Both the position numbers and the translations under genes were made by a program. Under the pieces are notes generated by a model. It made no database searches. It saw only the letters and a program-made list of their open reading frames with translations, and was not told the DNA's origin. A stretch of 48,073 nucleotides of DNA from the IMG/VR virus record IMGVR_UViG_3300032893_000078, positions 1-48,073 of that record. The stretch is one strand, 5' to 3'. The stretch's first letter is position 1, and every line of letters begins with the position of its first letter. Of the stretch, positions 1-48,073 are shown piece after piece. This DNA is from a virus.

Positions 1-127
1 GGCTGTGCCTAAGTGGAACGACGTAACGTCCAGGACCCCACCTTCCACGAGCGCGTACGCCTCAGCCCTGAGGGCTATGACGTCAACGCCTGGCGAGGAT
101 ATCTTGGTCATGGCCGCGGCCACGTCC
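1..127. repeat. Exact 127-bp repeat, left copy
   Basis: Bases 1-127 match 46711-46837 with no difference; base 128 (g) is the first mismatch against 46838 (t). Both copies lie inside baseplate J coding sequence in the same orientation. The exact length, beginning at base 1, points to an assembly-graph vertex rather than a biological repeat. Confidence 0.95.
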
Positions 128-1095
128 GACTTGACCTGGGTTGAACCGACGTACCCTGTGCCTGTGCTCAGGACATAGGTCAGGTAGATCGGGACCGTCT
201 CGACTGGTGTGTACCAGACGGTCCGCGTAACGCCCAGACCGTCCACGAACGTTATGGCGGTCGAGCCTGTCGAGGTAATACCCGCGGCCTGGTTGTTCCA
301 GATGACCGCTGCGAGTGTGCTTAGGGTAAGGGTCGGCTGGTGATAGACCACGGCCTCAAAACTGTGGGGCGGGACCCCGTTGCTGTCCGTGACGTTGCTG
401 GTATTGACCAAGACCTCGCACGTGACAACGTCCGTCAACTGGTCGATGTCTGACGCTATGGCTGGGCCTGTCGTGGACCCGGTCGCGCTGAGTTCAGCGT
501 CACGCCGAGCCCGCAAAATCGTGTCAGTATCGCCATTATTTCCCAGGACGCCAGGATCGGCATTTGTGACCGATACCCAGCCGGTAATGGGTGTTGAAAT
601 GACAGTCAAGGTCCCAGACGGGACTGGGATAGGCCCTGTTTGGGTACATTGGAACGCTACCGTGTATGTTCCGTCGGCCGCGGCCGTGTAGTCCTGAGCT
701 GGCGTGAATAGGAGGTCAGGGTGATTGAAAATTGATGCAAGGGCCGTGCCAGAAACTAGTGTGGTCCCTGAGGCCAGGTTAACCTGGGCGGCCACGGTCG
801 TAGGCTGAGGCCCCTCTTTCGTGGTCCCCGACAGCTTGGCAATCTCGACCAGGAGCTCGTCTTCCGCGTTATCAGGATTGTTCGCGTCATGTATCCGGCC
901 TAGTGCTTCCCACACGAGGGCAAGCTGGCGCGCGTGCACGCCGATGACCTGGCCGTCCGGGCTGTCTGGGTCCGTGTCAAAGTCGGACGAAACATACGCC
1001 AGCATGCCCGCGCTAAGGGCCTGGATGATCTCGTCCGCGTTCGGAACTACGAAGCCTTGGGGTTGTACCCCCCACGTGCTGGGATCTGCACTCAT
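1..1095 (-). CDS. Baseplate protein J-like, left copy (C-terminus cut by window edge)
   Basis: This open frame of 365 codons starts at the ATG at 1095 (MSADPSTWGVQPQGF...) and runs off base 1 without a stop. Its start overlaps the stop of the 63-aa gene upstream by ATGA, which supports the start. It is homologous along its whole length to the complete 394-aa gene at 46624-47808 and would lack only the last 28 residues. Baseplate J proteins (phage P2 gpJ, Mu gp47 family) form the wedge that links hub and fibres in contractile tails. If the genome is circular, this copy continues into 46710-46624 and ends like the other copy. Family assignment comes from sequence character and from its place next to W, V and DUF2612-like genes. 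Confidence 0.85.
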   Translation of the reverse strand, partial: MSADPSTWGVQPQGFVVPNADEIIQALSAGMLAYVSSDFDTDPDSPDGQVIGVHARQLALVWEALGRIHDANNPDNAEDELLVEIAKLSGTTKEGPQPTTVAAQVNLASGTTLVSGTALASIFNHPDLLFTPAQDYTAAADGTYTVAFQCTQTGPIPVPSGTLTVISTPITGWVSVTNADPGVLGNNGDTDTILRARRDAELSATGSTTGPAIASDIDQLTDVVTCEVLVNTSNVTDSNGVPPHSFEAVVYHQPTLTLSTLAAVIWNNQAAGITSTGSTAITFVDGLGVTRTVWYTPVETVPIYLTYVLSTGTGYVGSTQVKSDVAAAMTKISSPGVDVIALRAEAYALVEGGVLDVTSFHLGTA

Positions 1096-1283
1096 ACCGG
1101 AATCCACTCCCCACGAAGTCTAGCCTTGTGGTGCATGTATTTGGTGTGTTTGCCGTCTATTCGACGCATTTCCCAGGAATCGGGCCCGGCTTCGGTATTG
1201 ATATTTGGTGCCACTACGCAATAGACGGACGCTCCAGGGGCGTCAAATGGGCCAGGTGACGTATACCAGAAAGTGCCTATCAT
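1092..1283 (-). CDS. Hypothetical 63-aa protein between baseplate W and J
   Basis: This small gene has ATGA overlaps at both ends: its ATG (1283) overlaps the stop of the W-like gene, and its TGA overlaps the ATG of the J-like gene. It is rich in charged and aromatic residues near the C-terminus (W, R, K, H) and has no signal peptide or membrane segment. I do not recognise a family. The homologous right-hand copy (around 47805) lacks it: there the W stop overlaps the J start directly. It is therefore a gene gained or lost cleanly at a start-stop junction. A baseplate accessory role is possible from position only. Confidence 0.7.
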   Translation of the reverse strand: MIGTFWYTSPGPFDAPGASVYCVVAPNINTEAGPDSWEMRRIDGKHTKYMHHKARLRGEWIPV

Positions 1284-1645
1284 GAAACCCCCAACGTCAG
1301 GCTATCTTCTAAAGTCTTGGCATCGCCATATACGGCCGTGAACGTGATCGTGGCCACGCGCGTGGGCGTGTCAAAATTGACATAGCATTGCGGCACTGAC
1401 GTAACTCCTGGCACTGCAAGTATAGCGTTTCGCACGACCGAGCGCACGACCTCCAGGCTCGGGCTCTTGATCAGCACGTCTTGGAGCCACGGGACGCCTA
1501 AAGTCACGTCTTTGTACCACTCACCCTTAAAAAATCCGAGCCTTTGCCTGATTTTCTGGGCAATGTAGTCCTTGCCAGACACAAAGGTCCGGGAACCCTG
1601 GGAAAAGTCCAGGTCACCGACAGGGGTTACGCGAGCGAGGGACAT
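1280..1645 (-). CDS. Baseplate wedge protein W (gp25-like), left copy
   Basis: A 121-aa product starting at the ATG at 1645 (MSLARVTPVGDLDF...). A longer in-frame extension to 1807 is rejected because it overlaps the spike gene and has low-complexity P/L-rich sequence. The middle carries the gp25/W pattern: a short domain with GVPWLQDVLIKS, then VVRSVVRNAILAVPGVTSV, then a beta-rich end. T4 gp25 and P2 gpW are conserved wedge components that nucleate sheath attachment. It follows the spike gene by 4 nt and is coupled to the 63-aa gene by ATGA. A close homologue truncated by the window edge lies at 47805-48073. Confidence 0.85.
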   Translation of the reverse strand: MSLARVTPVGDLDFSQGSRTFVSGKDYIAQKIRQRLGFFKGEWYKDVTLGVPWLQDVLIKSPSLEVVRSVVRNAILAVPGVTSVPQCYVNFDTPTRVATITFTAVYGDAKTLEDSLTLGVS

Positions 1646-3094: not shown

Positions 3095-3447
3095 ACGACC
3101 AACAGAGGGTAGTAGGTCAGCTCACACCTCAGACCGTCGCCCAAATCATTCAGGCCTGGGGCTGAGTCATCCGCGGTCCGGGTCAGCACGTACAGCTCAC
3201 CTGTGGGCATATCCTCGACATGGTGATAGTACCGCCAAATCGGCCAGCTCGTGACCAGCTTCATGTGCGCAACTAGAAGCACACCCAAGGCAGCGTCATA
3301 CAGGTCTAGGTACCAGCGTTGCTCGCGTGTAGACCAGGAAAAGGAAAAGTCGTAGTCTGTGCCGTCCAGGTTCACGCGCGTTGCGTAGTACGTGGAACCG
3401 TCCGACAGGGTCGGGATCAGGACTGCCTTGGAAGTGTCTAGGGTCAT
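3091..3447 (-). CDS. Baseplate plug-like protein (DUF6983 type)
   Basis: A 118-aa protein with the pattern of small phage baseplate plug proteins: YYATRVNLDGTDYDFSFSWS, then RWYLDLYDAALGVLL, then a C-terminal GELYVLTR...LTYYPLL segment. Proteins of this type close the tail tube at the baseplate. The start at 3447 overlaps the stop of the DIT-like gene (ATGA), and the stop overlaps the hub start, so it is part of one translationally coupled string. The family name is from memory of the pattern; order agrees with it. Confidence 0.7.
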   Translation of the reverse strand: MTLDTSKAVLIPTLSDGSTYYATRVNLDGTDYDFSFSWSTREQRWYLDLYDAALGVLLVAHMKLVTSWPIWRYYHHVEDMPTGELYVLTRTADDSAPGLNDLGDGLRCELTYYPLLVV

Positions 3448-4250
3448 GGCAGAAGCCCTCCCAAGCCGCCCAGAATGCGTTTAGCCAGCGACTTGCGGGT
3501 TTCCTCTGACTTCTCTGCCGCGTTTGCATCGTCCTTAGCTGCCTTGGACCCTGTAAACTTGCGGGCCTGTCCTAGGCCCTCGGCGGGCTTGGGCGCTTCC
3601 ACTTCCAGGGAGCTGGCGATCGTAATCTGCCGCAGGTCAACGCCCATGACCGCACCGGTCCCGTCGTCAACCGACCGTGGCATGGTCAGACTTTCGATCA
3701 CGAGTCCTGAGATCTCGTCAAAGTCTGTTACAGCCGTGATCAGGACCTTGGTTTCGCGTGCCTTTTTCAACAGATCGAACGTACCGCGGACCCTGCTCTG
3801 GAAATTCTGGAACTTCAGTACCTGGACCGACTGTTTCGGGCTCGGCTCTGTTCCTTTCAGCACTAGGGGCGTGACTTTGGGGGTCGAGCCAAACAGGGCT
3901 TTGAGCCCGGCGTTCAGTAGGCTGGAGGCGTTAGGCTGCAATGGCGACCCCGGCACGTCAACCGTGAACGTCTTGGGCTCGTAGTGAGGCCTGGGGGGCA
4001 GGTCAAGGGTCTGAGTCTGGTAGTCCGCGTTCAGTAGCACGTCGTGGTTTGAATATAGGGGCGTGTCCGAAATGTACCCTTTGACAGACAGGGTGCGCGG
4101 CTTTATCCGGATATTGTCTGTCACGTCCGGGCCCTGTTCTACCGGGAATTCCGTGACCTCGTTGGGCAGGGTGTGGTCTTCCGTATCGACAGTGTCGAAT
4201 TCGACCACGTCAAACGTGCCGTCCTCGTTGGTCCAGGTCAAGGCAAACAT
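3444..4250 (-). CDS. DIT-like / distal tail baseplate protein
   Basis: A 268-aa protein. The first 90 residues match the DIT-like N-terminal domain of contractile-tail phages: VEFDTVDTEDHTLPNEVTEF, PVEQGPDVTDNIRIKPRTLS, then VKGYISDTPLYS. The C-terminal 60 residues are Lys/Ala-rich and probably helical or disordered (AAKDDANAAEKSEETRKS). Such proteins form a ring at the end of the tail tube where the baseplate starts. The start at 4250 shares its base with the stop of the tape measure gene. It lies directly after tape measure and before plug, as expected. Confidence 0.78.
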   Translation of the reverse strand: MFALTWTNEDGTFDVVEFDTVDTEDHTLPNEVTEFPVEQGPDVTDNIRIKPRTLSVKGYISDTPLYSNHDVLLNADYQTQTLDLPPRPHYEPKTFTVDVPGSPLQPNASSLLNAGLKALFGSTPKVTPLVLKGTEPSPKQSVQVLKFQNFQSRVRGTFDLLKKARETKVLITAVTDFDEISGLVIESLTMPRSVDDGTGAVMGVDLRQITIASSLEVEAPKPAEGLGQARKFTGSKAAKDDANAAEKSEETRKSLAKRILGGLGGLLP

Positions 4251-13824: not shown

Positions 13825-14640
13825 TCATTCAAGCTCTGGAAGGTAGGGAATTGCCACACAGCGGCACTGATACCAGGTCCCTGGATTTCCCCTGGCCTCT
13901 GTCCTTTGATCAACCACGGGTGGGTCCGCGTACTTCTGTCGGGTCCCCTCCAGGATCTGGTGGTCCTTGCGCACACTGCTGTCCTTACTGGTTGACCACA
14001 CATATTCAGTAATGCCGACAGATTGGTGCACGTCCTGTGTCAGCTGCGCGTTCAGTTTCAGGGTCTGGTCACGTGCGATCAGGGCAGCCCTGGACCGCGT
14101 AACGCCGAACGTTGCCTCCAATTCGGCCGCAGTATCCTCGACCCGGGCCCCGTCATACTCTTCCAGCGTGTCCCTAACCCGACCCAGCATTTCGTTAGAC
14201 ATGCCCGTAATCAGGTCAACGTTCTGCTGACGCCAGGCCTCGACCGTGTGTCCCAGCGGCAGGACGTCCGTATTTTTCAGCCCTATGACCCGGGTCGCCT
14301 CCCGGGTGACGTGGTCCGCGACCATGCCCCCCACTTGTGGTAGAGGGATCTGGAGCGCCCTCTGGTTCAGCGCGACCGCGACCGGGCCGAGCTGGCGCCT
14401 GACCGTGCCTAGTTTCAGGGGTCCTATGAGCAAGGCATCGGTTCGGACACCAAACACGTCTGGCCAATGCTGGTTCACGACCTCTCGTACCAGCCTCTCG
14501 AAGTCCTGGGCCCACAGGGCCATGGCCCCGACGTACCGGCGCTCAGCCGCGGTCGGCAGTTTGGGCCGGGGCACGGCCTTCTGACGACGCGCCTTGGCCC
14601 TGGACTTGAGCCAGTCAGTAAGTGCTGTTCTCAGGATCAT
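13825..14640 (-). CDS. Head morphogenesis protein (SPP1 gp7 / Mu gpF-like)
   Basis: A 271-aa protein. Its second half has the phage head morphogenesis pattern: RSRAALIARDQTLKLNAQLT, then VWSTSKDSSVRKDHQILEGT and a final NPGTWYQCRCVAIPYLPELE. The PG-x-x-x-x-C-R-C end is diagnostic for the SPP1 gp7/Mu gpF domain. These minor head proteins act with the portal in early head assembly. The start overlaps the 3' end of the glycosyltransferase gene by 26 nt in another frame. Confidence 0.85.
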   Translation of the reverse strand: MILRTALTDWLKSRAKARRQKAVPRPKLPTAAERRYVGAMALWAQDFERLVREVVNQHWPDVFGVRTDALLIGPLKLGTVRRQLGPVAVALNQRALQIPLPQVGGMVADHVTREATRVIGLKNTDVLPLGHTVEAWRQQNVDLITGMSNEMLGRVRDTLEEYDGARVEDTAAELEATFGVTRSRAALIARDQTLKLNAQLTQDVHQSVGITEYVWSTSKDSSVRKDHQILEGTRQKYADPPVVDQRTEARGNPGTWYQCRCVAIPYLPELE

Positions 14641-15637
14641 TCAATGCTTTCCACATCTGGCTCAGCCCATCCCGAGCACTCACGTCCACAAACAGGCCAT
14701 CCTTTGGCCTCGCGTCGGCCATGGCCTTGACCCCAGCATCGCAGTACATCCGGGCCAGGGCATCCCAGCCCCGAGTCTGGCACAGGTGGGCAGCTGCCCA
14801 ATAACACTCGAGCCGATACGGCCGAAACTGGATCCCCATCTGGTACGCGGTCAGGGCCTCGCCCACCTGCGTTGCCAGGAGCCCGATCTGGTACCATGAA
14901 ATGTAAACCTCGTCCGTGAACCCTGTTCCTGCCCTGCCCCTCTTGACTCGTTCCTTGTACCAATCTAGGGCTTTGAACACTTGCCCGGCTGCTGCGAATT
15001 CCTGAGCAGCATAGAACGCGCTCCGGGTATCTTCCGGGTTTTCCTTTGCATACTGGGCCAAGCCCTCGGCCGGGCCGACGTGCGTGGTCGGGTCCTTGCT
15101 CCTGACCCCGTCGTGACAGTACTCGACCCAGGCATCGGGCAGCGTATCCTGTGTAGGCTCTTGACCGGTCAGGGTCAGAACTTCGTGGTATGGGTACTGC
15201 CAGGTCCACGGGAGTGAAGCCTTGACCAGGTCCCGCTTGTAGTACCGAAACTGGCCGAATCTGTACTCGACCATGTACGAATCGGACGTGAGCCTGGCTA
15301 GGCCGCGACCGGTCGGGGTATAGTGTAGGATATCATCTGCATCAAGGAAATACAGGTAGGCGTTGTCTAAGTCCGGGCCTAGGTATTCCCGGGCCAGGTC
15401 TAGGGCTCGGTTCCGAGCATCACAGAAACTGAATGGCTGGGGGGCCTGCTCCCGGACCACGAGACAGCCCAGGCCTTGCTCCCGGCAAAACTTCTGGATC
15501 AAGATAGGGGTTTCGTCCGTCCCACCGTCCAACACTACCACGTCCGTTACGTGGTCTTGTACCGATTTGAGGCAGCGCCGGATAACCGCTGCCTCGTTCT
15601 TCACGATCATGTTAAGGACAATGCGTTGTTTGGTCAT
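14615..15637 (-). CDS. Family 2 glycosyltransferase with C-terminal helical repeats
   Basis: A 340-aa protein from the ATG at 15637 (MTKQRIVLNMIVKNEAAVIR...). The GT-A fold N-terminus has the GT2 opening VLNMIVKNEAAVIRRCLKS and VVVLDGGTDETP, and the DxD-like metal site LYFLDADDIL near residue 110. Residues from about 200 on are helical with TPR-like spacing (SAFYAAQEFAAAG, ISWYQIGLLATQ). It could add sugar to phage fibres or alter host surface glycans. It sits between the tailspike and head gene and has its own leaderless promoter. The acceptor is unknown. Confidence 0.82.
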   Translation of the reverse strand: MTKQRIVLNMIVKNEAAVIRRCLKSVQDHVTDVVVLDGGTDETPILIQKFCREQGLGCLVVREQAPQPFSFCDARNRALDLAREYLGPDLDNAYLYFLDADDILHYTPTGRGLARLTSDSYMVEYRFGQFRYYKRDLVKASLPWTWQYPYHEVLTLTGQEPTQDTLPDAWVEYCHDGVRSKDPTTHVGPAEGLAQYAKENPEDTRSAFYAAQEFAAAGQVFKALDWYKERVKRGRAGTGFTDEVYISWYQIGLLATQVGEALTAYQMGIQFRPYRLECYWAAAHLCQTRGWDALARMYCDAGVKAMADARPKDGLFVDVSARDGLSQMWKALNDPENSTY

Positions 15638-15644
15638 TGTCCCT

Positions 15645-15650
15645 AGGGTA
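15645..15650 (-). promoter_or_regulatory. -10 box for glycosyltransferase (leaderless layout)
   Basis: TGCTACCCT: -10 TACCCT at 15650-15645, followed by 7 nt and the ATG at 15637. It lies just past the tailspike stop (15654). No strong -35. Confidence 0.55.
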
Positions 15651-15653
15651 GCA

Positions 15654-18134
15654 CTAAATTGAAAACTCTCGTGACAGCTGATCAGCATGCATATTGATCC
15701 AGCTGTCCGTGAGGCGTGAAGTGCTCAGGATAGTATTGTTGGCTGTCAATGTCCACATGGCCGCATAAGTATAGCCAACCTTAGTGGGCATGTCGTTAGC
15801 TGGATCGCAACCCAAAAACACCGGGTCGGTATTGCTAAACACCGCTGCGCCATCTACGGACACGGAGTGCCGCTCCACTACGCCGCCCACGACATAGATG
15901 ACCTCGTTCGTAGCACGATCTAAGCCCCAACCTAGCACCTGATCTACGCCTACCGTGATAGCAGCCGTGGACGCCGTAAACTTGTTTGCTGCATCTTGTC
16001 CCCACCACAATTCAAGGTGCCCCGTAGCATTTATTACGCAACGCCAGTTATTCGTGCCGCCGGAGTGACACTTACCGATAGGACACTTCGCACTGCCAAT
16101 CGCATAACTACACGCCACGAGCCAAATCATAAATGACTGTCCGGCGGGGTTGGATTTTGTATCGTTTGCACGCATCAGGTAGTGACCGCCATTCGTACGG
16201 ATCTGTTTGCCGCCGGTCGCAGTACTTGTGATTATATCCAATAGTCCAGTAGAACCTGTACCGATCTCAAATGCAGGTCCCCCGTCATCCGAGAACCATC
16301 GGAGGCTTGTCGTAGGCGCAGCAGCATAGGGCTCGATTCGTGGCCCTGCGGTGTACTGAAATGCTACTTCCGCCGAATGAGGGTCAACCACCCAATTAAT
16401 ATCTGGGTTTTGATTAGACCTAATGTGACGTGGGCTGCCCGATTCGGTAGTGGATAGATCCGTGTAGTTGGCGGGACCCTGACCAGAGCAATTAGACAGT
16501 GTGATCTTTTGCACGGCCCCCCCGCCGTGGTTCCACGCGTCATGGTAATCCACCGGATCGGTGTTCGGGAACAGGCAGTCGCGCAGACTGATTGTGCTGC
16601 GCAGGGCTGTGCTACCGAACGAGAGCTGTATATTCCGTCGATCTCCACCGGTGCCGACGATATGTACTTGTTGTAGCGTACGAACACCCGAGGCGCCGTC
16701 GGCTACAAGATTCAAACGACTGGCGGCATCTAGCGCTGCGAAACGCTTATTCGTCACACTGTGAATAAACGAGGGGCTCCCGAAACTGCAATAGTATAGG
16801 GCCTGTGATGCTTCGGTGCCTCCAGTGCTGCATTCGTTTTGCTCCCACCCGCTAGCGTTAGTTTCCCACGTCACCGCGGTGAAGTTCGCACTGCGCACCC
16901 GAATGTTGCCCGACGCCCAATATACGCCGAAACACGGCATTGTGGGGTGTGTGCCGTATACGTATAGGTCGTTGACTGTCCACTCTAGCGCTTGACCGCC
17001 GAGGTTGAAATTGATCATCCCGGCAACGCTGCCGCCGGATGAGTGTACACTGTGTGCTATGCCCCACTCGTAGTTAGACGCTAAACGCTCTACATCAGGA
17101 CAGACAGCGATCGCGGCCTCGAAATGACCACTCAGAGTGGGATCCACCACGTGGAAATTATTGAACTTAGGGCGTGTCATGCCCCCATCGCCCCCTGAAT
17201 GTATGCGACGCTGCCAGGAACACCCAAAGCGCATGTGCTGTCCGCTGGGCACCTCCACAGACAGATCGCGGATCTCCTGATACGCTTGCCCCAGGTTGAT
17301 TGCGTCTGCATACAGCCAACAATCGACATAGATTGTCGCACCCGTCGTCAGCGTGCCCGAGCCCAGATCAATTGTAAGAGTCTTCCCGCCGTGAGCGACC
17401 GCGATACTAGTCGCGGTCCCGAGCGCGGTAGATGTTCCGTATGTGCTGTTGGGCGAATCGGCTGGACCTGGACCACCGTCAATTGATATTGAATACATTA
17501 TCCCGGAAGTACCTATTGTACCGCCGGTATCAATCCGGATTGCAACCTTTCGACGAGCATCGCATTGACTGCCACTCCGAAGTGTTGCCGACGCAGTGCC
17601 CCAGCCTATACTGCTTGACGCGTACGGATCTGATATTTGCGATGTGGTTGCCCCGTACCAAAGCAGTGTAGTCCCGCCTCCAAGAGAGTAACTCTCTAGG
17701 TAGGATGTAGCACCTTGAATAACCAAGCCATTTAGCGCCGACTCGTCAAACGCTAGCGTTGATTCAATACGGTATCTACCCGCGGGAATGTTGAGGCGTT
17801 TGAGCCCGTTCGCGATCAGGTATGCTTTATAGGCAGCGAAAAAAGGCACACAATTGACCGCGCTGGTATCTGTGCCCGACGGCACGAAGTCTAATAGGTT
17901 GAGTTCTATTACAGACCCTGCCGGACCGGACCCGTCTACAGCTTCCCGGTACACTCGACCGGCCCCGAATAGTGGCATTGCCGCCTTTTTCTGGGCATTG
18001 GTTTTACCGCTCGCTACCCGCACGTTCACAGGACTGTTCGGGCCTGTGTACCCCGCACCCCCATCAGCATCGGCGGACTGCCATGTATATGTGCCATGGG
18101 TGACAGAATCTTCAGCTTGCATCAAAACGGTCAT
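15654..18134 (-). CDS. Tailspike / receptor-binding protein with pectate-lyase-like beta-helix
   Basis: An 826-aa protein. Residues 1-45 form a short docking module (MTVLMQAEDSVTHGTYTWQS ... GYTGPNSPVNV) also found at the N-terminus of the 166-aa protein at 19032-19532. Residues about 95-130 (AYLIANGLKRLNIPAGRYRI) mark entry to a right-handed beta-helix as in capsule- or LPS-degrading spikes. The C-terminal 200 residues look like a lectin-type sandwich (SLRWFSDDGGPAFEIGTGST). Its base composition is less G+C-rich than neighbours, a sign of exchange. Its ATG overlaps the stop of the previous gene. A sugar-cleaving active site is likely but not proven here. Confidence 0.8.
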   Translation of the reverse strand: MTVLMQAEDSVTHGTYTWQSADADGGAGYTGPNSPVNVRVASGKTNAQKKAAMPLFGAGRVYREAVDGSGPAGSVIELNLLDFVPSGTDTSAVNCVPFFAAYKAYLIANGLKRLNIPAGRYRIESTLAFDESALNGLVIQGATSYLESYSLGGGTTLLWYGATTSQISDPYASSSIGWGTASATLRSGSQCDARRKVAIRIDTGGTIGTSGIMYSISIDGGPGPADSPNSTYGTSTALGTATSIAVAHGGKTLTIDLGSGTLTTGATIYVDCWLYADAINLGQAYQEIRDLSVEVPSGQHMRFGCSWQRRIHSGGDGGMTRPKFNNFHVVDPTLSGHFEAAIAVCPDVERLASNYEWGIAHSVHSSGGSVAGMINFNLGGQALEWTVNDLYVYGTHPTMPCFGVYWASGNIRVRSANFTAVTWETNASGWEQNECSTGGTEASQALYYCSFGSPSFIHSVTNKRFAALDAASRLNLVADGASGVRTLQQVHIVGTGGDRRNIQLSFGSTALRSTISLRDCLFPNTDPVDYHDAWNHGGGAVQKITLSNCSGQGPANYTDLSTTESGSPRHIRSNQNPDINWVVDPHSAEVAFQYTAGPRIEPYAAAPTTSLRWFSDDGGPAFEIGTGSTGLLDIITSTATGGKQIRTNGGHYLMRANDTKSNPAGQSFMIWLVACSYAIGSAKCPIGKCHSGGTNNWRCVINATGHLELWWGQDAANKFTASTAAITVGVDQVLGWGLDRATNEVIYVVGGVVERHSVSVDGAAVFSNTDPVFLGCDPANDMPTKVGYTYAAMWTLTANNTILSTSRLTDSWINMHADQLSREFSI

Positions 18135-18820
18135 ATTACGGAAACCTCTTGAACGAGACAGTAGCCGGAGCCTACATACTGGGCTAAAACGGAATGTGTG
18201 CCGGACGGGAGGGACACACCAGACACAGACACGACCTGCGGCGAAGCCCCGGCTGTGACAGTGATCGTGCTCCCGGACACGCCCGGGATTTGCAGGGTTA
18301 GGGTGCCAGAGCTGACGAACACGCTGGCGGTCAGGGTCACGATTCTGGGGGTCGAGACCAGGAAATCGCCCAGGCTGTACGCTGCCCCGGCAGGGATTTC
18401 GACATTGGGGGTCACGTCCAACAGCCCGGCATATTTATCGGGCACGATCACTGGATTGCCCATGAACGCGACAGTAAACGCGCCGTTTTCTGGTCCGCCG
18501 TCCAGATCATACCGCAGAACGTTCAGGGTGCTGCCCTCTGAGTTAGAACTGAAGATGATTCCTAGGTCGTCAACTGTCGAGCCCAGGTATTCCACAGAGT
18601 GTGCACATTTGCTAGCGTCAATCCCAGTGACTGGGGTCACGGTGTAGTTCCCGGTGCTGTTCCGGACCACACTTTGGATGTTATATGCCTGGACCAGGGT
18701 CACATTGACCCCATCATCGTGCACGTGGGCCTCAGCCACGACACGGCCTACGCCGTTGGTCTGGGCCACTGCTCCCTCGCCCCAGGCTAGGGTTGCTGCT
18801 AAAACGTCTGCGTAGGTCAC
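18131..18820 (-). CDS. Tail fibre-like beta-sandwich protein
   Basis: A 229-aa, largely beta protein with no membrane segment. The last 75 residues (VTLTASVFVSSGTLTLQIPG ... PSGTHSVLAQYVGSG, ending VQEVSVI) resemble the C-terminus of the 166-aa protein at 19032-19532 in spacing and key residues (GTLT-QI, G-T-SV, E-VSV). The first 60 residues hold VAEAHVHDDGVNVTLVQAYN. It begins with GTG overlapping the stop of the small membrane protein gene and ends overlapping the tailspike start. It is probably a virion fibre or adaptor. Confidence 0.65.
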   Translation of the reverse strand: MTYADVLAATLAWGEGAVAQTNGVGRVVAEAHVHDDGVNVTLVQAYNIQSVVRNSTGNYTVTPVTGIDASKCAHSVEYLGSTVDDLGIIFSSNSEGSTLNVLRYDLDGGPENGAFTVAFMGNPVIVPDKYAGLLDVTPNVEIPAGAAYSLGDFLVSTPRIVTLTASVFVSSGTLTLQIPGVSGSTITVTAGASPQVVSVSGVSLPSGTHSVLAQYVGSGYCLVQEVSVI

Positions 18821-19017
18821 TTGGTTGGGTCCTTGATACCGGCCGTGATCAGGCCTTTAAGGTTCAAGCCTGGCAGGGATTCCAAGATCTTGACCAGGAT
18901 TCCGGCCCAGCGCCACTGGGTCTGGGAGTAGACTGCCTGCATTACAGCCAAGGCATACGTCAGCACGATCGACACATTGATCGGATCAGAGAGCCAGGTA
19001 GGAATTTTCTGGACCAT
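18817..19017 (-). CDS. Small membrane protein (66 aa)
   Basis: It starts at the ATG at 19017 (MVQKIPTWLSDPINVSIVLT...), five bases after a -10 TATACT; an extension to 19032 enters that box. A hydrophobic stretch around residues 12-30 (VSIVLTYALAVMQAVYS) may span the membrane, with a C-terminal amphipathic helix. Holin-like or superinfection roles are possible; I do not recognise a family. It stands within the fibre cluster. Confidence 0.55.
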   Translation of the reverse strand: MVQKIPTWLSDPINVSIVLTYALAVMQAVYSQTQWRWAGILVKILESLPGLNLKGLITAGIKDPTK

Positions 19018-19022
19018 GACCG

Positions 19023-19028
19023 AGTATA
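19023..19028 (-). promoter_or_regulatory. -10 box before the small membrane protein
   Basis: TGCTATACT: -10 TATACT at 19028-19023, 5 nt, then ATG 19017. It sits at the boundary with the upstream gene's stop (19034-19032). Confidence 0.55.
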
Positions 19029-19031
19029 GCA

Positions 19032-19532
19032 TTAGCCGACCGACACCGTTTCAATCGAAGCAAACTCCGCTGCTGAGTCTATCAGTGTAGTGATTACCGA
19101 ATAGGTGCCGGCTGCGACTGTGAAAGGGCTCGACGTGTAGGTCAGAAGACCAGATCCGCCCCCAGCAAAAAACGTTACTACACTTCCAGACACAACACCA
19201 CCAGCCCCTACTATCTGCACTGTCAGTGTACCATATGTGGCTTCATTATATGCTGTGACCGATATCTGTGCGCTGCGAGTAACAGCAGTGGTAAATGAGC
19301 CTAGAACGAACCATACCGGATCACTGCCAGGCGAGGCTATGACCTGTTCGTGCGGGGTCAGGTCCAATAGCACACTCACGGTAGGGGCCGAGCCCGCCGG
19401 CGTAGTGTCGGCTACTACCACGATATTAGTCGGGCTGTTAGGGCCGGGATATCCCGCTCCGGCGTCATACGTCGCGGCTTGCCAGGAGTAAATGCCCCCG
19501 GACACTGAGTCAACGGCTTGGTGTAGGATCAT
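19032..19532 (-). CDS. Chimeric fibre protein sharing modules with tailspike and fibre neighbour
   Basis: A 166-aa protein. Residues 1-40 (MILHQAVDSVSGGIYSWQAA ... GYPGPNSPTNI) match the N-terminal docking module of the 826-aa tailspike. Residues 90-166 match the C-terminal sandwich of the 229-aa fibre protein. It is thus built from the head of one neighbour and the tail of the other. It has GTLTVQIVGAGG and AAGTYSVITTL in the second module. The start at 19532 overlaps the portal stop by ATGA. It likely attaches at the same virion site as the tailspike. Confidence 0.7.
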   Translation of the reverse strand: MILHQAVDSVSGGIYSWQAATYDAGAGYPGPNSPTNIVVVADTTPAGSAPTVSVLLDLTPHEQVIASPGSDPVWFVLGSFTTAVTRSAQISVTAYNEATYGTLTVQIVGAGGVVSGSVVTFFAGGGSGLLTYTSSPFTVAAGTYSVITTLIDSAAEFASIETVSVG

Positions 19533-23319: not shown

Positions 23320-23568
23320 TCAAGTACTAATCACACTCGAACACCAGCACGTGGTCTTGGGGTGATGTTTGTTCAGATACACGGTGAAAAACAGGGCTGC
23401 AATATCGCAAGCGTCCTTGTCCTGTGTGCCTGAATCAAACGTGGCCCAGTAATTGACGACCTGGCTGTGCTCACAGAACAGCTTCCAGGTCTCGGGCTTG
23501 GCTGCGTCGGCTTGGGTCGCGGATATGCCTAGGAAAACTAGAGACAGGAGCAGGATTCGAAACATCAC
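23320..23568 (-). CDS. Secreted small protein with signal peptide (82 aa)
   Basis: It starts M(M)FRILLLSLVFLGISATQA, a classic signal peptide with a likely cut after ADA (residue 22). The mature part is about 60 aa with four Cys residues that could form disulfides, including a final CWCSS. There is no lipobox. It would act in the periplasm or outside. It is coupled to the gene before (GTGATG overlap at 23565-23568). The role is unknown; periplasmic phage proteins often affect superinfection or lysis. Confidence 0.65.
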   Translation of the reverse strand: MMFRILLLSLVFLGISATQADAAKPETWKLFCEHSQVVNYWATFDSGTQDKDACDIAALFFTVYLNKHHPKTTCWCSSVIST

Positions 23569-25671: not shown

Positions 25672-25913
25672 TGAACCCCACCCAGTGCCTGGAACACACG
25701 TTTCGAGACCATGACCATGATTCCCTGGCTGTTAGGGTCCGTGTAGACGACCGCTTCCACGTGCCGTCCAGGATCCTTCTCAAAGTCAGCAGTGCACGAG
25801 GGCCAAACAAAGATCTCGCCGTCCCGTAGGAGTTTGGTTGGGGCTTCCGGGGACAGGGTCACGTGTGCCCCGCCCAGGGCCTGAATGAATTCCTCGACTG
25901 TGAGTGGGGTCAT
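25668..25913 (-). CDS. Hypothetical 81-aa protein
   Basis: It starts MTPLTVEEFIQALGGAHVTL; the ATG overlaps the stop of the beta-helix gene (ATGA). It has a helix, then alternating beta strands (VEAVVYTDPNSQGIMVMVSK). There are no clear motifs. It is a real gene by coupling on both sides. Confidence 0.6.
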   Translation of the reverse strand: MTPLTVEEFIQALGGAHVTLSPEAPTKLLRDGEIFVWPSCTADFEKDPGRHVEAVVYTDPNSQGIMVMVSKRVFQALGGVQ

Positions 25914-26989
25914 CCTGAGACCTCGCCAAAGACCTTGGCCTCGCCATAGACCAGGGCTTGGCCAAAGACCAGGGCTTGGCCAAAGACCAGGGCTTGGCCA
26001 CAGACCCAGGCCTTGTCATAGACCTTGGCCTCGCCAAAGACCCTGGCATTGCCACAGACCAGGGCCTTGTCGTAGACCAGGGCTTGGCCACAGACCTTGG
26101 CCTCGCCATAGACCCTGGCATTGTCAAAGACCTTGGCATTGTCAAAGACCTTGGCCTCGCCATAGACCTTGGCATTGCCAAAGACCCAGGCGTTGTCAGA
26201 GACCTTGGCCCCGCCAAAGACCTTGGCCTCGCCATAGACCTGGGCATTGTCATAGACCTTGGCATTGCCAAAGACCCAGGCGTTGTCAGAGACCTTGGCC
26301 CCGCCAAAGACCTTGGCATTGCCACAGACCAGGGCCTCGCCAAAGACCAGGGCCTGGCCGTAGACCTTGGCCTTGTCATAGACCTTGGCCCCGCCAGAGA
26401 CCTTGGCCTTGTCAGAGACCCAGGCCTCGCCATAGACCCAGGCATTGCCATAGACCTGGGCATTGCCAAAGACCTTGGCCCCGCCAGAGACCTTGGCCTT
26501 GTCATAGACCTGGGCCTCGCCATAGACCTGGGCATTGTCAGAGACCTGGGCCTCGCCATAGACCTGGGCATTGTCAGAGACCCAGGCTTGGCCAAAGACC
26601 TTGGCATTGTCATAGACCAGGGCCTCGCCAAAGACCAGGGCCTGGCCGTAGACCTTGGCCTTGTCATAGACCCAGGCCTGGCCATAGACCCAGGCCTTGT
26701 CATAGACCTTGGCCTCGCCATAGACCTGGGCATTGTCAGAGACCCAGGCTTGGCCAAAGACCTTGGCATTGTCATAGACCTTGGCCTCGCCATAGACCCT
26801 GGCATTGTCAAAGACCTTGGCATTGTCAAAGACCTTGGCCTCGCCATAGACCAGGGCTTTAGATCCTACGTAAGCCGTAGGATCTACCCTCGCCGTATCT
26901 GCGACCCAGCCTCCTCCGTTGCTGTGTCTATGGGCTGGGACAGGTCCTGCCCCAAAATCATAGGTTTGTGTTTGCTGTTGATTGGTCAT
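25910..26989 (-). CDS. Left-handed beta-helix protein of about 50 hexapeptide repeats
   Basis: A 359-aa protein. Residues 1-40 are a cap (GGGWVADTARVDPTAYVGSK). The rest is a near-perfect hexapeptide run: VYGEAK, VFDNAK, VYGQAW, VSDNAQ and so on, with V at position 1, G or D at 3 and A at 5. This is the signature of a left-handed parallel beta-helix, about 17 coils long. No acyltransferase His or C-terminal domain is seen. It may be a structural rod or binding scaffold. It has the best promoter in the window. The role of such proteins in phages is not known. Confidence 0.8.
   Translation of the reverse strand: MTNQQQTQTYDFGAGPVPAHRHSNGGGWVADTARVDPTAYVGSKALVYGEAKVFDNAKVFDNARVYGEAKVYDNAKVFGQAWVSDNAQVYGEAKVYDKAWVYGQAWVYDKAKVYGQALVFGEALVYDNAKVFGQAWVSDNAQVYGEAQVSDNAQVYGEAQVYDKAKVSGGAKVFGNAQVYGNAWVYGEAWVSDKAKVSGGAKVYDKAKVYGQALVFGEALVCGNAKVFGGAKVSDNAWVFGNAKVYDNAQVYGEAKVFGGAKVSDNAWVFGNAKVYGEAKVFDNAKVFDNARVYGEAKVCGQALVYDKALVCGNARVFGEAKVYDKAWVCGQALVFGQALVFGQALVYGEAKVFGEVSG
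25916..26862. repeat. Tandem 18-bp coding repeats of the beta-helix gene
   Basis: An array of degenerate 18-bp units such as CCATAGACCTTGGCCTCG and GTCAAAGACCTTGGCATT, with longer blocks repeated across tens of bases. Because the unit is a multiple of three, several frames on both strands stay open; only the minus frame gives the hexapeptide pattern and has a promoter. The number of units probably varies by slippage. Confidence 0.85.
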
Positions 26990-42987: not shown

Positions 42988-43361
42988 ACGATCCCGTAAA
43001 CCATCCCAGTCATTACACCGCGCACCCCTCGGGCGTAGAATGCATTACCGTGACAGAACACATGTCGTTCTGTGTCGGGAACGCGATCAAATACCTATGG
43101 CGAGCCGGGCTCAAAGGGTCCAAAATAGAGGACCTGGAAAAGGCGCGCTGGTACATTGACCGGGAAATTGCGCGTCAGAAATCCCTTGTCGGCCCCAGTC
43201 CTGCTGCTACAGTAGACAATACACCAGCTGCCTGCGACGCTCTGGACCAAGATGACCCAACAGATACTCCTACCCGCCCCGATATCCCGTCATTGTTCCC
43301 GAAGCCGCCAACACCAGACCCACCTGAGCCTTGGTGGCAGGTTTTTACGTCGGGTGCCTAA
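42984..43361 (+). CDS. DUF3310 protein
   Basis: A 125-aa protein with the whole DUF3310 signature at the N-terminus: VNHPSHYTAHPSGVECITVT, SFCVGNAIKYLWRAGLKG and IEDLEKARWYIDREI. The family is common in phages and often placed near nucleotide metabolism genes; its action is not settled. The C-terminal 55 residues are Pro/Asp-rich and disordered. It starts with GTG overlapping the previous stop. Confidence 0.88.
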   Translation: MNDPVNHPSHYTAHPSGVECITVTEHMSFCVGNAIKYLWRAGLKGSKIEDLEKARWYIDREIARQKSLVGPSPAATVDNTPAACDALDQDDPTDTPTRPDIPSLFPKPPTPDPPEPWWQVFTSGA

Positions 43362-43467
43362 AGCCGTTCACTTCTGTGTGCTGTTCACGCTCCTGTTCGG
43401 TGCCCTGTTCGCAATTCAGTGTGCGATCAATACCTGGCAGGACGACCTGACAGAGCGGCAGAAATAG
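43354..43467 (+). CDS. Small membrane protein (37 aa)
   Basis: From GTG 43354, overlapping the DUF3310 end, the product has one hydrophobic helix (FCVLFTLLFGALFAIQCAI) and a charged tail NTWQDDLTERQK. A longer frame from 43252 would lie wholly within DUF3310 and is less likely. Last gene of the plus-strand early region, before a terminator. Confidence 0.5.
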   Translation: MPKAVHFCVLFTLLFGALFAIQCAINTWQDDLTERQK

Positions 43468-43512: not shown

Positions 43513-44229
43513 TTACGCGGCCGTGACCTCGATGCTGCCCCACTGCTGCAGCCCCGTGTCTTCCTCTGGCCAAGTGGCATGATCATCTGCAGTGTAACAG
43601 CCCGGGGATAGGATCGTGACACTGTCGTTCAGCTTCAAGGCCCAGGCAAACAAGGACACAGTGTAGGTCCCGTCATTCGGGGCTGTGACGTAGAACGTCC
43701 AGTCTATCGGAGTCTTACCGAGGCTTGGGTTTGATTGTGCATCGAATCGCTGGGTGAACGTTTTTGCGAAACCTGGGATATGCTGTACAAGCGCGCGCAC
43801 GTACACGGTGGGGGTCGTTGACGGTATATAGATCGGTTGCACAAACAACGGACCAACGCGGATGATCATGCGTTCTCCGGCATTGGCCGAGCAGGACATG
43901 ATTAGGGCATTGCCATCCGAGTCGCGTACAGCGCGCGGAGTGTTATCAACTATCTGAGGTCCGGGCCCTGATACTGTGTTGTCATGTATAAAGGGCCCTG
44001 TCGCGACCACGATCGACCGCGTGGCTTTGCTGTCCAGGTATGTGATCCAATCCCCGACCGCGCCCAACTGCCCATTCAAGTTCCTGGCCGCCAGGGCCTG
44101 GTCGGCCTGAAACCCTTGCTGACGTACTCCGTCCGAGGGAATAACGCGAGGGGCTAGACCCACCTCAGGCCCTGATAGGACAGTTGCATCGGTGGCCCAC
44201 AGTGGGTTACTGGTTGGTCTCGCGGTCAT
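43513..44229 (-). CDS. Putative virion fibre/decoration protein (238 aa)
   Basis: A beta-rich 238-aa protein with a helical N-terminal segment (QGFQADQALAARNLNGQLGA, VGDWITYLDSKA) and later strands (TPTVYVRALVQH, DGTYTVSLFAWALKL). That layout, helix then sandwich, is common in phage tail or head fibres. It is the last gene of the late minus unit, following the lysis-like genes. It could also be an accessory base fibre. No exact family is recognised. Confidence 0.55.
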   Translation of the reverse strand: MTARPTSNPLWATDATVLSGPEVGLAPRVIPSDGVRQQGFQADQALAARNLNGQLGAVGDWITYLDSKATRSIVVATGPFIHDNTVSGPGPQIVDNTPRAVRDSDGNALIMSCSANAGERMIIRVGPLFVQPIYIPSTTPTVYVRALVQHIPGFAKTFTQRFDAQSNPSLGKTPIDWTFYVTAPNDGTYTVSLFAWALKLNDSVTILSPGCYTADDHATWPEEDTGLQQWGSIEVTAA

Positions 44230-44435
44230 TAGTGAATCCTCTTCAGTGCCAGGAGCAAGCCCAGAGCGGTCAGGGTCGTAGTCAGACTGTACTTGACCAG
44301 GGCCGCGACGAACGAATGCATGCGAAGATGTACGTCCAGCTTGGTCTCAATTGCGGTCAAGCGTTCCAGGATCTTCTCTTCAAATTCGGTCATGGCATCC
44401 AGCGGGCTATGGTCATCTGGTCGGGCAATCCCCAT
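44229..44435 (-). CDS. Holin-like small membrane protein
   Basis: The ATG at 44435 (or 44393, giving MTEFEEKILERLTAIETKLD). It has a coiled coil (EEKILERLTAIETKLDVHLR) followed by one hydrophobic span (LVKYSLTTTLTALGLLLAL) and a basic end KRIH. This is the layout of XhlA-like lysis membrane proteins. Downstream of the protease gene, overlapping its 3' end. Lysis role by layout and position. Confidence 0.6.
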   Translation of the reverse strand: MGIARPDDHSPLDAMTEFEEKILERLTAIETKLDVHLRMHSFVAALVKYSLTTTLTALGLLLALKRIH

Positions 44436-45432
44436 CAAAGTTCAACTTGGTGAGATCCGCCACATTGATCCTGGCAAATCCGCAACCGGTGCCGAGCGTT
44501 GACGTGGTGCTGTTCTCTTGAGCAGCAAAGCACCAGCCCCACAGGCCCCAGCTGTTGTCAATGATGACCTGGGCCTTGACTGAGTCATAGCCCACAACGC
44601 GGATCTCGTGCCCGCCAGCTAGCCCGCTGGACACAGTTACAGGCAAAGTTCCGGTCTTATCGGTCAAAAACATGCTGTTATACCAGTCAATGCCGATCAC
44701 AGCCGGACCGGTCTGCAGACATGCGATCAGTTGTGTGGTCGTGTCCGCGGTCGTGTATCCCTTGACCCAACCGGCATTTTGCATCCAGGTCATGACGCTG
44801 GAGCCGTTCGAGCCGTTGTCATTGGCATTCGTCGCAGGACAGAACGCAGCGGGGCAACTGGAGCATGTGCACGGGATAGAGCAGCCATTGTCTACACACG
44901 TCCCGCCCTGGTAGGCCAGGCGTGCATCGGTCTCGTTGTCATGCACGTCGGACGTGTACGGGGTCGTTGAAATGACACCCACGCCAGCGTTACCGGTACA
45001 GGAGCCCGTGTCGCCCTGGTTCAATGGGGTCCAGTTCAGTGGATTCCAGAATCTGGAACAAACCGTCGCGGACGTCTCGGTGGGCATGGCGCGACCTGGT
45101 GCCCTGTAATGTCTACGACCTAGGTGTGGGCGCTTGGCCTGTTTCGTGGCCGATGCTGGGGCAGGCGTGTCTGGGAACGCGACCGCGGTACAGGTCGAGG
45201 TCGTGCCGCCCGTGGCCTGGGTTCCACCTGTAGCGTGGGTGCCACCCGTTGCATGTGTTCCGCCTGTGGCCTTGGCCCCGCCCGTCCCTTTTGCCCCACC
45301 AGCAGCGCAAGGACAAGGCGGGCACTTGTGGGCACTGTCGTCCGTACAGACGCCTGGCTGGCAGTTGACAGCCATCAAACCAGCAGCCCAGCCAACGGCT
45401 AGAAACTCTGACCAATGTCTAAGACTGCGCAT
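44413..45432 (-). CDS. Papain-like (C1A) cysteine protease, exported
   Basis: A 339-aa protein. Residues 1-25 are an export signal (WAAGLMAVNC; a non-ideal lipobox at Cys 24). Residues 45-80 are a low-complexity repeat GGTHATGGTHATGGTQATGG. The catalytic domain follows: PLNQGDTGSCTGNAGVG with the oxyanion Gln and active Cys, SGLAGGHEIRVVGYD with the His, and VIIDNSWGLWGWCF with the Asn in NSWG. All three catalytic residues are present, with six or more Cys for disulfides. It sits between a small lipoprotein and a holin-like gene. A lysis or host-surface role is likely; no other endolysin was found. Confidence 0.85.
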   Translation of the reverse strand: MRSLRHWSEFLAVGWAAGLMAVNCQPGVCTDDSAHKCPPCPCAAGGAKGTGGAKATGGTHATGGTHATGGTQATGGTTSTCTAVAFPDTPAPASATKQAKRPHLGRRHYRAPGRAMPTETSATVCSRFWNPLNWTPLNQGDTGSCTGNAGVGVISTTPYTSDVHDNETDARLAYQGGTCVDNGCSIPCTCSSCPAAFCPATNANDNGSNGSSVMTWMQNAGWVKGYTTADTTTQLIACLQTGPAVIGIDWYNSMFLTDKTGTLPVTVSSGLAGGHEIRVVGYDSVKAQVIIDNSWGLWGWCFAAQENSTTSTLGTGCGFARINVADLTKLNFDGDCPTR

Positions 45433-45653
45433 TACTTTGACTCCTGGTGCTTGGCAAACACGCCCGGGACTGTGTCACAGGCCAGAGAGTAGTTCGTGAC
45501 CCCGTCAACGCTCGACTGTACCTTGGCACAGTACTGATAAGATAGGTTGTCAGAATCGACGGCCGAGACCAGCGTGGGCTTTTGGACCGATGCGCAACCG
45601 GCAGAGCAACTGGAAATGATGAAAAGGGAAATCAGAGCCTTGACGTAGTTCAT
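45432..45653 (-). CDS. Small outer-membrane lipoprotein (o-spanin candidate)
   Basis: A 73-aa protein with a typical lipoprotein signal: MNYVKALISLFIISSCSAGC, lipobox SAGC with the lipidated Cys at residue 20, leaving a mature part of about 54 aa with two Cys. Small lipoproteins in lysis cassettes often act as outer spanins. No inner spanin is seen with it. The ATG is five bases after a -10. Its stop overlaps the protease start (TAATG). Confidence 0.65.
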   Translation of the reverse strand: MNYVKALISLFIISSCSAGCASVQKPTLVSAVDSDNLSYQYCAKVQSSVDGVTNYSLACDTVPGVFAKHQESK

Positions 45654-45656
45654 GCC

Positions 45657-46250
45657 CTAGGATAGCACACCGTCCCAGACCCTGGCCAGGACGTCCCCAG
45701 CCCCTGGGCTGCCATCCGTGTTCGTAGTAGCGCACAGTGACCCGCTCGCGTACGCGGTCTGTGAGAACGTGAAAACGGTATTAGGCTCCTGGACCAGCCA
45801 GACCAGGACCCCGGCAGGAGCAGCACTTTGCAGCAACGACCAGGCAGCCTGGCGCATTTCCTGGGTCATGTCGTCGGTTGAATAGATGGCTATGGTCGTT
45901 GAGAATTGCTCGTACTGGTAATTGGTCAGTAGGAGGGCTGCAACCCGGATCACGTCCGGGATTCGACCCCGCGACCTGTTCGCGGCAATGCGGCCCCGGA
46001 TATAGGTCCGGTACACGTCGTCGGATGACCCAATGCGCGGCTGTCCGACCTTGCGTCCTATCCAGTCGAGACGGAAACCTGTTGCGGTGTCAAGGCGGAA
46101 CGAATCCACGACCGCCTGGGCCTGGTCTTCCAGTTTCTGGACCTGGTCCAGGAATACGGCCAAGTACGTGAGAAACTTAGGCTTTCCCTGGTACTGGGTA
46201 ACGACCTTGGAGACCCCGTCCTTAATGTGGTCAATAGGGGCGAGGGTCAT
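45657..46250 (-). CDS. Baseplate/tail protein (DUF2612-like)
   Basis: A 197-aa protein with the DUF2612 pattern: VVDSFRLDTATGFRLDWIGR-KVGQPRIG, then YRTYIRGRIAANRSRGRIPD and a later PAGVLVWLV. These proteins follow baseplate J in contractile tails (the P2 gpI position) and help fix fibres. Its ATG overlaps the stop of the 126-aa gene. The stop region contains the -10 of the lipoprotein gene. Confidence 0.82.
   Translation of the reverse strand: MTLAPIDHIKDGVSKVVTQYQGKPKFLTYLAVFLDQVQKLEDQAQAVVDSFRLDTATGFRLDWIGRKVGQPRIGSSDDVYRTYIRGRIAANRSRGRIPDVIRVAALLLTNYQYEQFSTTIAIYSTDDMTQEMRQAAWSLLQSAAPAGVLVWLVQEPNTVFTFSQTAYASGSLCATTNTDGSPGAGDVLARVWDGVLS
45659..45664 (-). promoter_or_regulatory. -10 box for lysis-like genes
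   Basis: TGCTATCCT: -10 TATCCT at 45664-45659, 5 nt, then ATG 45653. It sits within the stop end of the DUF2612 gene. No clear -35. Confidence 0.5.
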
Positions 46251-46627: not shown

Positions 46628-47808
46628 GGGCTAACCTCAATGTGTGCCGGGTCAAACGTTGCGACCTGGCGCGGGCTGATTGTGATGTTGGTGGTCCCAG
46701 AAGGACTTGAGGCTGTGCCTAAGTGGAACGACGTAACGTCCAGGACCCCACCTTCCACGAGCGCGTACGCCTCAGCCCTGAGGGCTATGACGTCAACGCC
46801 TGGCGAGGATATCTTGGTCATGGCCGCGGCCACGTCCTGTTTGACTTGGGTCGAGCCGACATACCCGGACCCTGTGCTCAGAACATACGAGAGGTAAATA
46901 GGCACGGTTTCGACCGGCGTGTACCAAACAGTCCTAGTTACGCCCAACCCGTCAACAAATGTGATCGGCGTGGTACCCGTGGACGTAATGCCCGCTGCCT
47001 GGTTGTTCCAGATGACCGCGGCCAGAGTGCTCAGGTCCAGGGTCGGCTGGTGGTAGACTACGGCCTCAAAACTGTGGGGCGGGACGCCGTTGCTGTCCGG
47101 TGAATTACCTGTGTTTACTAACACTTCCACGGTTACCACGTCCGTGCTAAGTGACAGAATGTCGGACGCTATGGCAGGGCCTGTCGTTGACCCGGTCGCG
47201 GACAGTTCAGCGTCACGTCGAGCCCGTAAAATTGTGTCCGTGTCGCCATTGTTGCCCAGGACCCCGGGGTCTGTGTTCCCGACCGAAACCCAGCCGGTTA
47301 TAGGGGTACTGATTACGGTCAGGGTTCCGACCGGTACAGGGATGGGCCCGGTCTGGGTACACCGGAATGCGATCGTGTATGTCCCGTCGGCCGCGGCCGT
47401 GTAGTCCTGGGCCGGCGTGAACAGCAGGTCAGGGTGATTGAAAATTGATGCAAGGGCCGTGCCAGAGACTAGTGTGGTCCCTGAGGCCAGGTTGACCTGG
47501 GCCGCTACCGTGGTCGGCTGGGGACCCTGTTTGGTCGTGCCTGAGAGTTTCGCGATCTCGACCAGTAATTCGTCTTCTGCGTTATCCGGGTTGTTCGCGT
47601 CATGTATTCGGCCCAGTGCTTCCCACACCAGGGCAAGCTGGCGCGCGTGCACACCAATGACTTGACCGTCCGGGCTGTCTGGGTCCGTATCAAAATCACT
47701 TGACACATACGCAAGCATGCCCGCGTTCAGAGCCTGGATTATCTCATCCGCGTTCGGGACTACAAAGCCCTGGGGTTGCACGCCCCATGTGGTGGGGTCG
47801 GAACTCAT
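46624..47808 (-). CDS. Baseplate protein J-like, right copy (complete)
   Basis: A 394-aa protein with the J/gp47 pattern: VPNADEIIQALNAGMLAYVS, ELLVEIAKLSGTTKQ, DTDTILRARRDAELSATGST and GVPPHSFEAVVY. The last domain follows the VEVLVN segment. It is nearly parallel to the left copy (1-1095); the two share the exact 127 bp at 46711-46837 and are diverged beyond it. Its ATG overlaps the W-like stop directly, without the 63-aa gene. Confidence 0.88.
   Translation of the reverse strand: MSSDPTTWGVQPQGFVVPNADEIIQALNAGMLAYVSSDFDTDPDSPDGQVIGVHARQLALVWEALGRIHDANNPDNAEDELLVEIAKLSGTTKQGPQPTTVAAQVNLASGTTLVSGTALASIFNHPDLLFTPAQDYTAAADGTYTIAFRCTQTGPIPVPVGTLTVISTPITGWVSVGNTDPGVLGNNGDTDTILRARRDAELSATGSTTGPAIASDILSLSTDVVTVEVLVNTGNSPDSNGVPPHSFEAVVYHQPTLDLSTLAAVIWNNQAAGITSTGTTPITFVDGLGVTRTVWYTPVETVPIYLSYVLSTGSGYVGSTQVKQDVAAAMTKISSPGVDVIALRAEAYALVEGGVLDVTSFHLGTASSPSGTTNITISPRQVATFDPAHIEVSP
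46711..46837. repeat. Exact 127-bp repeat, right copy
   Basis: Matches bases 1-127 exactly. Upstream sequence (46624-46710) has no partner in the window because the left copy begins at base 1. Confidence 0.95.
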
Positions 47809-48073
47809 GATACCCCCAACGTCAGGCTATCTTCCAACGTCTGCCCGGTCCCGTACACAGCAGTGAACGTGATCACAACCACTCGAGTCTGGGTGTCAAA
47901 ATCAACGAAACATTTGGGCACTGACGTAACTCCGGGCACCGCAAGTATAGCCCGGCGTACGACCGAACGCACGACCTCTAGGCTGGGGCTCTTAATCAGG
48001 ACGTCCTGCAACCACGGCACGCCCAAAGTTGTGTCTTTGTACCATTCACCCTTGAAAAATCCGAGCCGTTGTC
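47805..48073 (-). CDS. Baseplate wedge protein W (gp25-like), right copy, partial
   Basis: The C-terminal 89 codons of a W-like gene whose N-terminus is beyond the window end. It has GVPWLQDVLIKS and AILAVPGVTSVPKCFVDFDT. It differs from the left copy at scattered positions (for example PQCYVNFDTPTRVA against PKCFVDFDTQTRVV). Its TGA overlaps the J ATG. Confidence 0.85.
   Translation of the reverse strand, partial: QRLGFFKGEWYKDTTLGVPWLQDVLIKSPSLEVVRSVVRRAILAVPGVTSVPKCFVDFDTQTRVVVITFTAVYGTGQTLEDSLTLGVS

Follow-up and report, generated by a model that had tools for sequence, protein, structure and literature searches.

The 48,073 bases of the virus record IMGVR_UViG_3300032893_000078, hereafter the window, i.e. 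the whole stretch of DNA that was analysed, belong to a soil phage with a contractile tail, in which baseplate J, sheath-like and Mu F-like genes are present. Three overlapping ORFs on the minus strand fill positions 44229–45653 exactly, and the three genes proposed there by a first-pass annotation of the DNA are real. On this strand, the order is a baseplate/tail gene (DUF2612, 45657..46250) upstream of the cassette, a gene for 73 aa (45432..45653), the 339-aa protease gene (44413..45432), a gene for 69 aa (44229..44438) and, downstream, a fibre-like gene for 238 aa (43513..44229), which has counterparts in the related phages G001, G002 and L019. The ATG of the protease gene overlaps the stop codon of the preceding 73-aa gene, and an AGGAG lies upstream of it.

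The first gene, annotated as a small lipoprotein, encodes a putative lipoprotein of o-spanin-like size that gave the best of 7 raw lipobox matches in the window; however, the lipobox is doubtful, because it can be read as ISSC or SAGC in the window and ISSC becomes ISSY in strain L002, in which SAGC remains. No i-spanin partner, which would have an N-terminal membrane segment and a periplasmic coiled coil, was seen for this candidate, the membrane segment of the 69-aa neighbour being C-terminal. The latter protein, described at first as a membrane protein of holin type, indeed shows a helical N-terminus and a single C-terminal hydrophobic segment, as in XhlA/holin-like proteins, but its match to the holin family phrog_689 has E=0.13, so that we consider it weakly holin-like. 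A 74-aa protein of similar build is its counterpart in the protease cassette of G002. A second holin candidate is the two-segment membrane protein of 71 aa encoded at 18817..19032 on the minus strand, which is 59% identical to the 66-aa holin-like membrane protein whose gene adjoins the protease gene of G001.

Identity and architecture of the protease

The description of the middle gene as an exported C1A protease with intact Cys, His and Asn was borne out by profiles, structure matches and predicted fold, by the conserved residues and by an export-type N-terminus. The 339-aa protein matches PF00112 with 21.0 bits (cut-off 20.7), the phage family phrog_16701 with E=7.6e-17 and xylellain (3ois) with 7e-4; when the family profile was compared with the PDB, 3ois was again the best match (8e-17), and the 60 matches listed are nearly all C1A enzymes. 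Structure prediction, as the first-pass annotation had proposed, gave a papain fold with moderate confidence (mean pLDDT 54.6, with 74–83 in many blocks of the core), and the best fold match of the model is also xylellain (3e-7). On the basis of sequence and model, the protein is a C1A (papain) peptidase with a predicted papain fold, and a predicted enzyme. Xylellain, a C1A protease of Xylella fastidiosa, is the closest solved structure by both sequence profile and fold, although it is a bacterial protein and the identity in the fold comparison is about 19%; we know of no Gly/Thr tether or lysis context for it.

The residues Gln-Cys-His-Asn are found in C1A order, all encoded on the minus strand. 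The oxyanion-hole Gln139 (45016..45018), the catalytic Cys145 (44998..45000) and the catalytic His275 (44608..44610) are invariant in 14 relatives, while the catalytic Asn293 (44554..44556), in an NSWG motif, is kept in most members but is not invariant, being Thr in G002. Of the two families suggested for a profile search, C1A was matched and NlpC/P60 was not: neither PF00877 nor a related profile was found in the protease, PF00112 being the only Pfam match at E<=1, and an NlpC/P60 or CHAP identity was rejected. Similarly, no wall-hydrolase domain was found in the protease by Pfam, PHROGs and NCBIfam, which give only C1/peptidase or chance matches. The N-terminal motif LGRxxxHDPR, typical of the actinophage members of phrog_16701, is partially matched in the window by LGRRHYRAPGR.

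The protease carries a signal peptide, probably of the lipoprotein type (45361..45432, minus strand), with Cys24 of the motif AVNC as the candidate lipidated residue. Three related phages share this protease build, namely G001, whose protein is 51% identical to that of the window in a three-way alignment, and G002 and L055, whose proteins match phrog_16701 with 1.1e-19 and 1.4e-19, respectively. Signal peptides are present in all four proteases of this clade, with the lipobox-type motifs AVNC in the window, AHAC in G001, AFAC in G002 and LLGC, which is canonical, in L055. The bacterial criterion used was [LVI][ASTVI][GAS]C after a hydrophobic stretch, and the Asn at −1 places AVNC outside this consensus; AFAC and AHAC resemble AWAC, a non-standard lipobox that has been verified (PMC6139136). 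These features bear on the possibility, raised in the first-pass annotation, that the protease is carried in the virion; it would then be injected or used during entry. Its gene does adjoin tail genes, but a signal peptide and a lipobox-like Cys would be out of place in a protein that is built into virions within the cytoplasm, and no tail-attachment domain was seen in the protease, so that we regard a virion-borne enzyme as extremely unlikely.

The four clade proteases contain 8–19 Cys residues, whereas eight signal-less relatives have 1–4, and the domains of 79 further relatives have a median of 2; this richness fits a protein folded outside the cytoplasm. Moreover, a Gly/Thr or Gly/Ser repeat tether is found in all four. 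In the window, the tether (45196..45306, minus strand) consists of GGxxATGG repeats of Myxococcales type, in agreement with the initial impression of a linker of the kind used by bacterial surface proteins: it matches 17 ORFs of one Myxococcales MAG and was found in 7 of the 145 genomes of that MAG's order, and in none of 199 Actinomycetota genomes, an empty answer that serves as a weak control. In the proteins of the Myxococcales MAGs, the linker stands between the N-terminal part and a glycosidase-like or esterase-like domain, and in two of them it directly follows a lipobox. The three-member protease alignment, compared with bacterial genomes, gave linker matches only, at 10 bacterial loci. 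These phages seem to have taken over the build of the enzymes that their presumed host secretes. This host is probably a myxobacterium, as judged from the Myxococcales-type linker and from hub-gene relatives in 4 of the 379 Myxococcota genomes.

Gene neighbourhoods of the protease family

Within the clade, the protease of G002 lies in a cassette encoding a T4-type lysozyme (phrog_7, 2.9e-7, with an E-8-D-5-T motif), a C92-like protein, the protease, an 81-aa membrane protein and the 74-aa XhlA-like protein. In G001, instead, it is placed among head and fibre genes, adjoining the 66-aa membrane protein mentioned above, and in L055 it directly follows a gene for a 156-aa protein in which hydrophobic segments and a motif resembling a lipobox were noted; at the same place, L019 has only a small membrane protein of 55 aa. 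The protease thus appears, from these sequences, to travel with small membrane proteins but to shift its place in the genome. The gene between lysozyme and C1A protease in G002 (L020:14441-15016, plus strand) is weakly similar to C92/YiiX, a permuted papain fold. The same phage encodes an M10-type metalloprotease (L020:10912-11640, plus strand; PF00413, 1.9e-5; HELGHVFGKEH) near spike and lysis genes, preceded by a hydrophobic signal-like segment, which is a second protease in the clade. Three genes away from the protease of G001 lies a gene (G001:C1:14387-15589, L028) for a 400-aa protein that, by eye, is alpha/beta-hydrolase-like (GISGGG).

Outside the clade, a tblastn search with the protease retrieved 25 phage records, all but one from actinophages, and 415 stretches encoding relatives emerged when viral contigs were scanned with a profile. 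A pattern search with the bare protease gave no match in bacterial genomes. A member of this C1A family that lacks a signal peptide was observed in the Myxococcota genome G167 (L167:6965-7651, minus strand), beside a DUF2235-like gene of T6SS-lipase type. By inspection and hydropathy, no signal peptide is present in the cultured actinophage members, nor in the 79 nearest actinophage-type viral relatives, i.e. those for which an ORF was recovered. The actinophage members of phrog_16701 have 1–4 Cys and no tether, whereas the form in the window is Cys-rich, tethered and, as its signal peptide predicts, exported; this build is new relative to the known members of the family. The family itself is known in phages, mostly under the labels 'hypothetical' or 'peptidase', and was published once as a putative lysin: Orf38 of Gordonia phage GMA2 (2.9e-95 against phrog_16701), whose C1A domain is homologous to that of the window with the same catalytic residues, was reported in 2015 as one of four putative lysins (PMC4524720). 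The idea of a possible new kind of lysis enzyme, put forward in the first-pass annotation, is not supported in view of this precedent and of the coexistence of protease and T4-type lysozyme in G002.

The relatives of the protease often lie beside endolysin and holin genes. In the Gordonia phages Mareelih, Cafasso, Lilbeanie and GMA2, the gene is found beside lysin A and holin, between the split lysin A genes and the holin gene; lysin A lies three genes away in Arthrobacter phage Mufasa8, a peptidoglycan-binding protein two genes away in Streptomyces phage ZL12, and a GH25-type endolysin adjoins the protease in contig L003. Among 143 neighbours, surveyed two genes either side in 47 non-redundant viral relatives, endolysins make up 16 of the 25 PHROG families most often matched, with one amidase and one holin family (raw counts), and Amidase_2 is the top Pfam family. 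With a small reference set of lysis genes, a match within about 5 kb was obtained at at least 31 of 80 relative loci, again as a raw count. On the other hand, Mycobacterium phage BirdsNest has the gene in its right arm, and three Streptomyces phages (Shaeky, Sycamore and Shady) have it in tRNA clusters. The lysis position attributed to the protease holds, therefore, as a tendency of the family to adjoin endolysins and holins; the occurrence of the same protease in non-lysis positions, which the first-pass annotation had indicated as evidence against its proposal, was found in part, in these four phages and among the head and fibre genes of G001.

Since some relatives lie outside lysis modules, the main rival to a role in lysis is a host-surface protease unneeded for lysis, which would be lipid-anchored on the infected cell and would cut receptors, pili or matrix proteins, blocking superinfection or freeing the progeny from debris and matrix. 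Such an enzyme could well be built like the window protease, which is probably a lipoprotein and has a tether of the kind found on host surface proteins, and the company of fibre genes and of the alpha/beta-hydrolase-like gene in G001, the M10 metalloprotease of G002 with its hydrophobic segment and the tRNA-cluster and right-arm positions all point in this direction. By contrast, the recurrence of the wider family beside endolysin and holin genes, and the small membrane protein that usually adjoins the protease within the clade, argue against it, and we judge a purely surface role to be somewhat unlikely.

Possible role in opening the host cell

As the first-pass annotation had reported, no wall hydrolase was recognised elsewhere in the window by Pfam and PHROGs, which covered nearly all unassigned genes, and by a scan for the lysozyme motif E-8-[DC]-5-T; in particular, an endolysin among the unassigned genes, regarded in that annotation as a finding that would contradict it, was not recognised by these profile and motif scans. 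In G001, none was found by the weaker tests of ORF inspection, motif scan and search with the G002 lysozyme, which as a query gave nothing in the window either. Pfam missed the G002 lysozyme altogether, so a divergent lysozyme could hide in these genomes. The 'endolysin' label phrog_1517 on 3444-4250 was discarded, being a weak match limited to residues 15-81 in a gene that matches the tail family phrog_817 better.

The missing wall hydrolase could be explained if the protease replaced the endolysin as the main lysis enzyme of the window phage and of G001, cutting, for instance, peptide cross-links or the protein components of a myxobacterial sacculus of unusual composition. A C1 peptidase has been published among phage lysins (PMC4524720), and N5 domains of the papain family are found in the lysin A of mycobacteriophages (PMC3314691); these domains, like the protease described here, are papain-clan cysteine peptidases among lysis enzymes, but they are C39-like and fused inside lysin A, whereas the window protein is a free-standing C1A enzyme, predicted to be exported. 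Replacement of the endolysin becomes less likely because G002 carries both the same protease and a lysozyme; ordinary endolysins adjoin the protease in many wider relatives, and a lysozyme as divergent as that missed by Pfam could be hidden here too. In addition, C1A enzymes normally cut L-peptides and not murein cross-links. We therefore consider such a substitution very unlikely. The notion of a discontinuous myxobacterial sacculus held together by protein found no support in the open-access literature, and was not used as evidence.

Instead, the occurrence of unexported cousins among the lysis genes of many phages suggests that the window protease most likely helps to open the host, and the habit of the family to reside in lysis modules points to envelope proteins as its targets. 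The reading that we prefer, to which the sequence data give about an even chance, is that of an envelope-anchored accessory enzyme loosening the envelope at lysis. The protease would be exported by Sec and probably lipidated at the Cys after the signal peptide, and the Gly/Thr tether would let the disulphide-rich protease domain reach periplasmic or outer-membrane proteins. Late in infection, it would cut envelope proteins, for instance tethers between outer membrane and wall, so that the cell would open when the small membrane proteins of 69 and 71 aa fire; a wall hydrolase that escaped recognition may or may not take part. In this way, the protease would make lysis faster or more complete. 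In this scheme we infer the lipidation, the host, the late timing, the substrate and the role of the protease in lysis. The stricter claim that, in these probably myxobacterial phages, the lipid-anchored protease itself carries out the wall or outer-membrane step of lysis, left elsewhere to endolysins or spanins, by envelope proteolysis and not by cutting murein, seems to us quite unlikely.

Help to lysis by a protease has a precedent in Listeria, in which Mtz/Tim, a phage-derived exported metzincin/TIMP-like pair, makes cells more susceptible to phage lysins (PMC8235301); this pair consists of a metalloprotease with a lipoprotein partner in a Gram-positive host, and we claim no homology to the window protease. 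Spanins (Rz/Rz1, u-spanins) also involve lipoprotein genes in a lysis context, as in the window cassette, but here no i-spanin candidate is seen and one of the putative lipoproteins is a predicted enzyme. Spanins were absent in 91 of 677 phages of a survey whose authors call for an alternative route (PMC6139136). For the opening of Gram-negative envelopes without spanin or recognised endolysin, a protease shared by several related phages, and putatively anchored in the envelope, is a concrete and testable candidate, and the frequency of lysis modules around members of the widespread phrog_16701 family makes this family worth attention.

Other features of the phage genome

Variant copies of the W/J genes lie at both ends of the window (1-1546 and about 46700-48073), with 84% and 81% nucleotide identity, and strain L002 matches the right-hand type at 98%. 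Because of these variant copies, the contig probably represents a complete circular genome whose closure joins two co-assembled strains, a true duplication being less likely. A glycosyltransferase family 2 gene (14615-15688, minus strand) has the Mu F-like head gene on one side and a spike-like gene on the other, and similar GT-like genes are found near the portal in G001 and G002. At 23320-23568 (minus strand), an 82-aa protein of no family has a clear signal peptide, and its GTG start overlaps the end of the preceding 129-aa gene. A 71-aa ORF with one strong membrane segment (43252-43467, plus strand) overlaps the DUF3310 gene at its end, in a different frame. Finally, a YdcK-type beta-solenoid repeat gene was observed at 25786-26989; owing to its repeat, open frames of about 325-353 codons also exist on the opposite strand and in a second frame.
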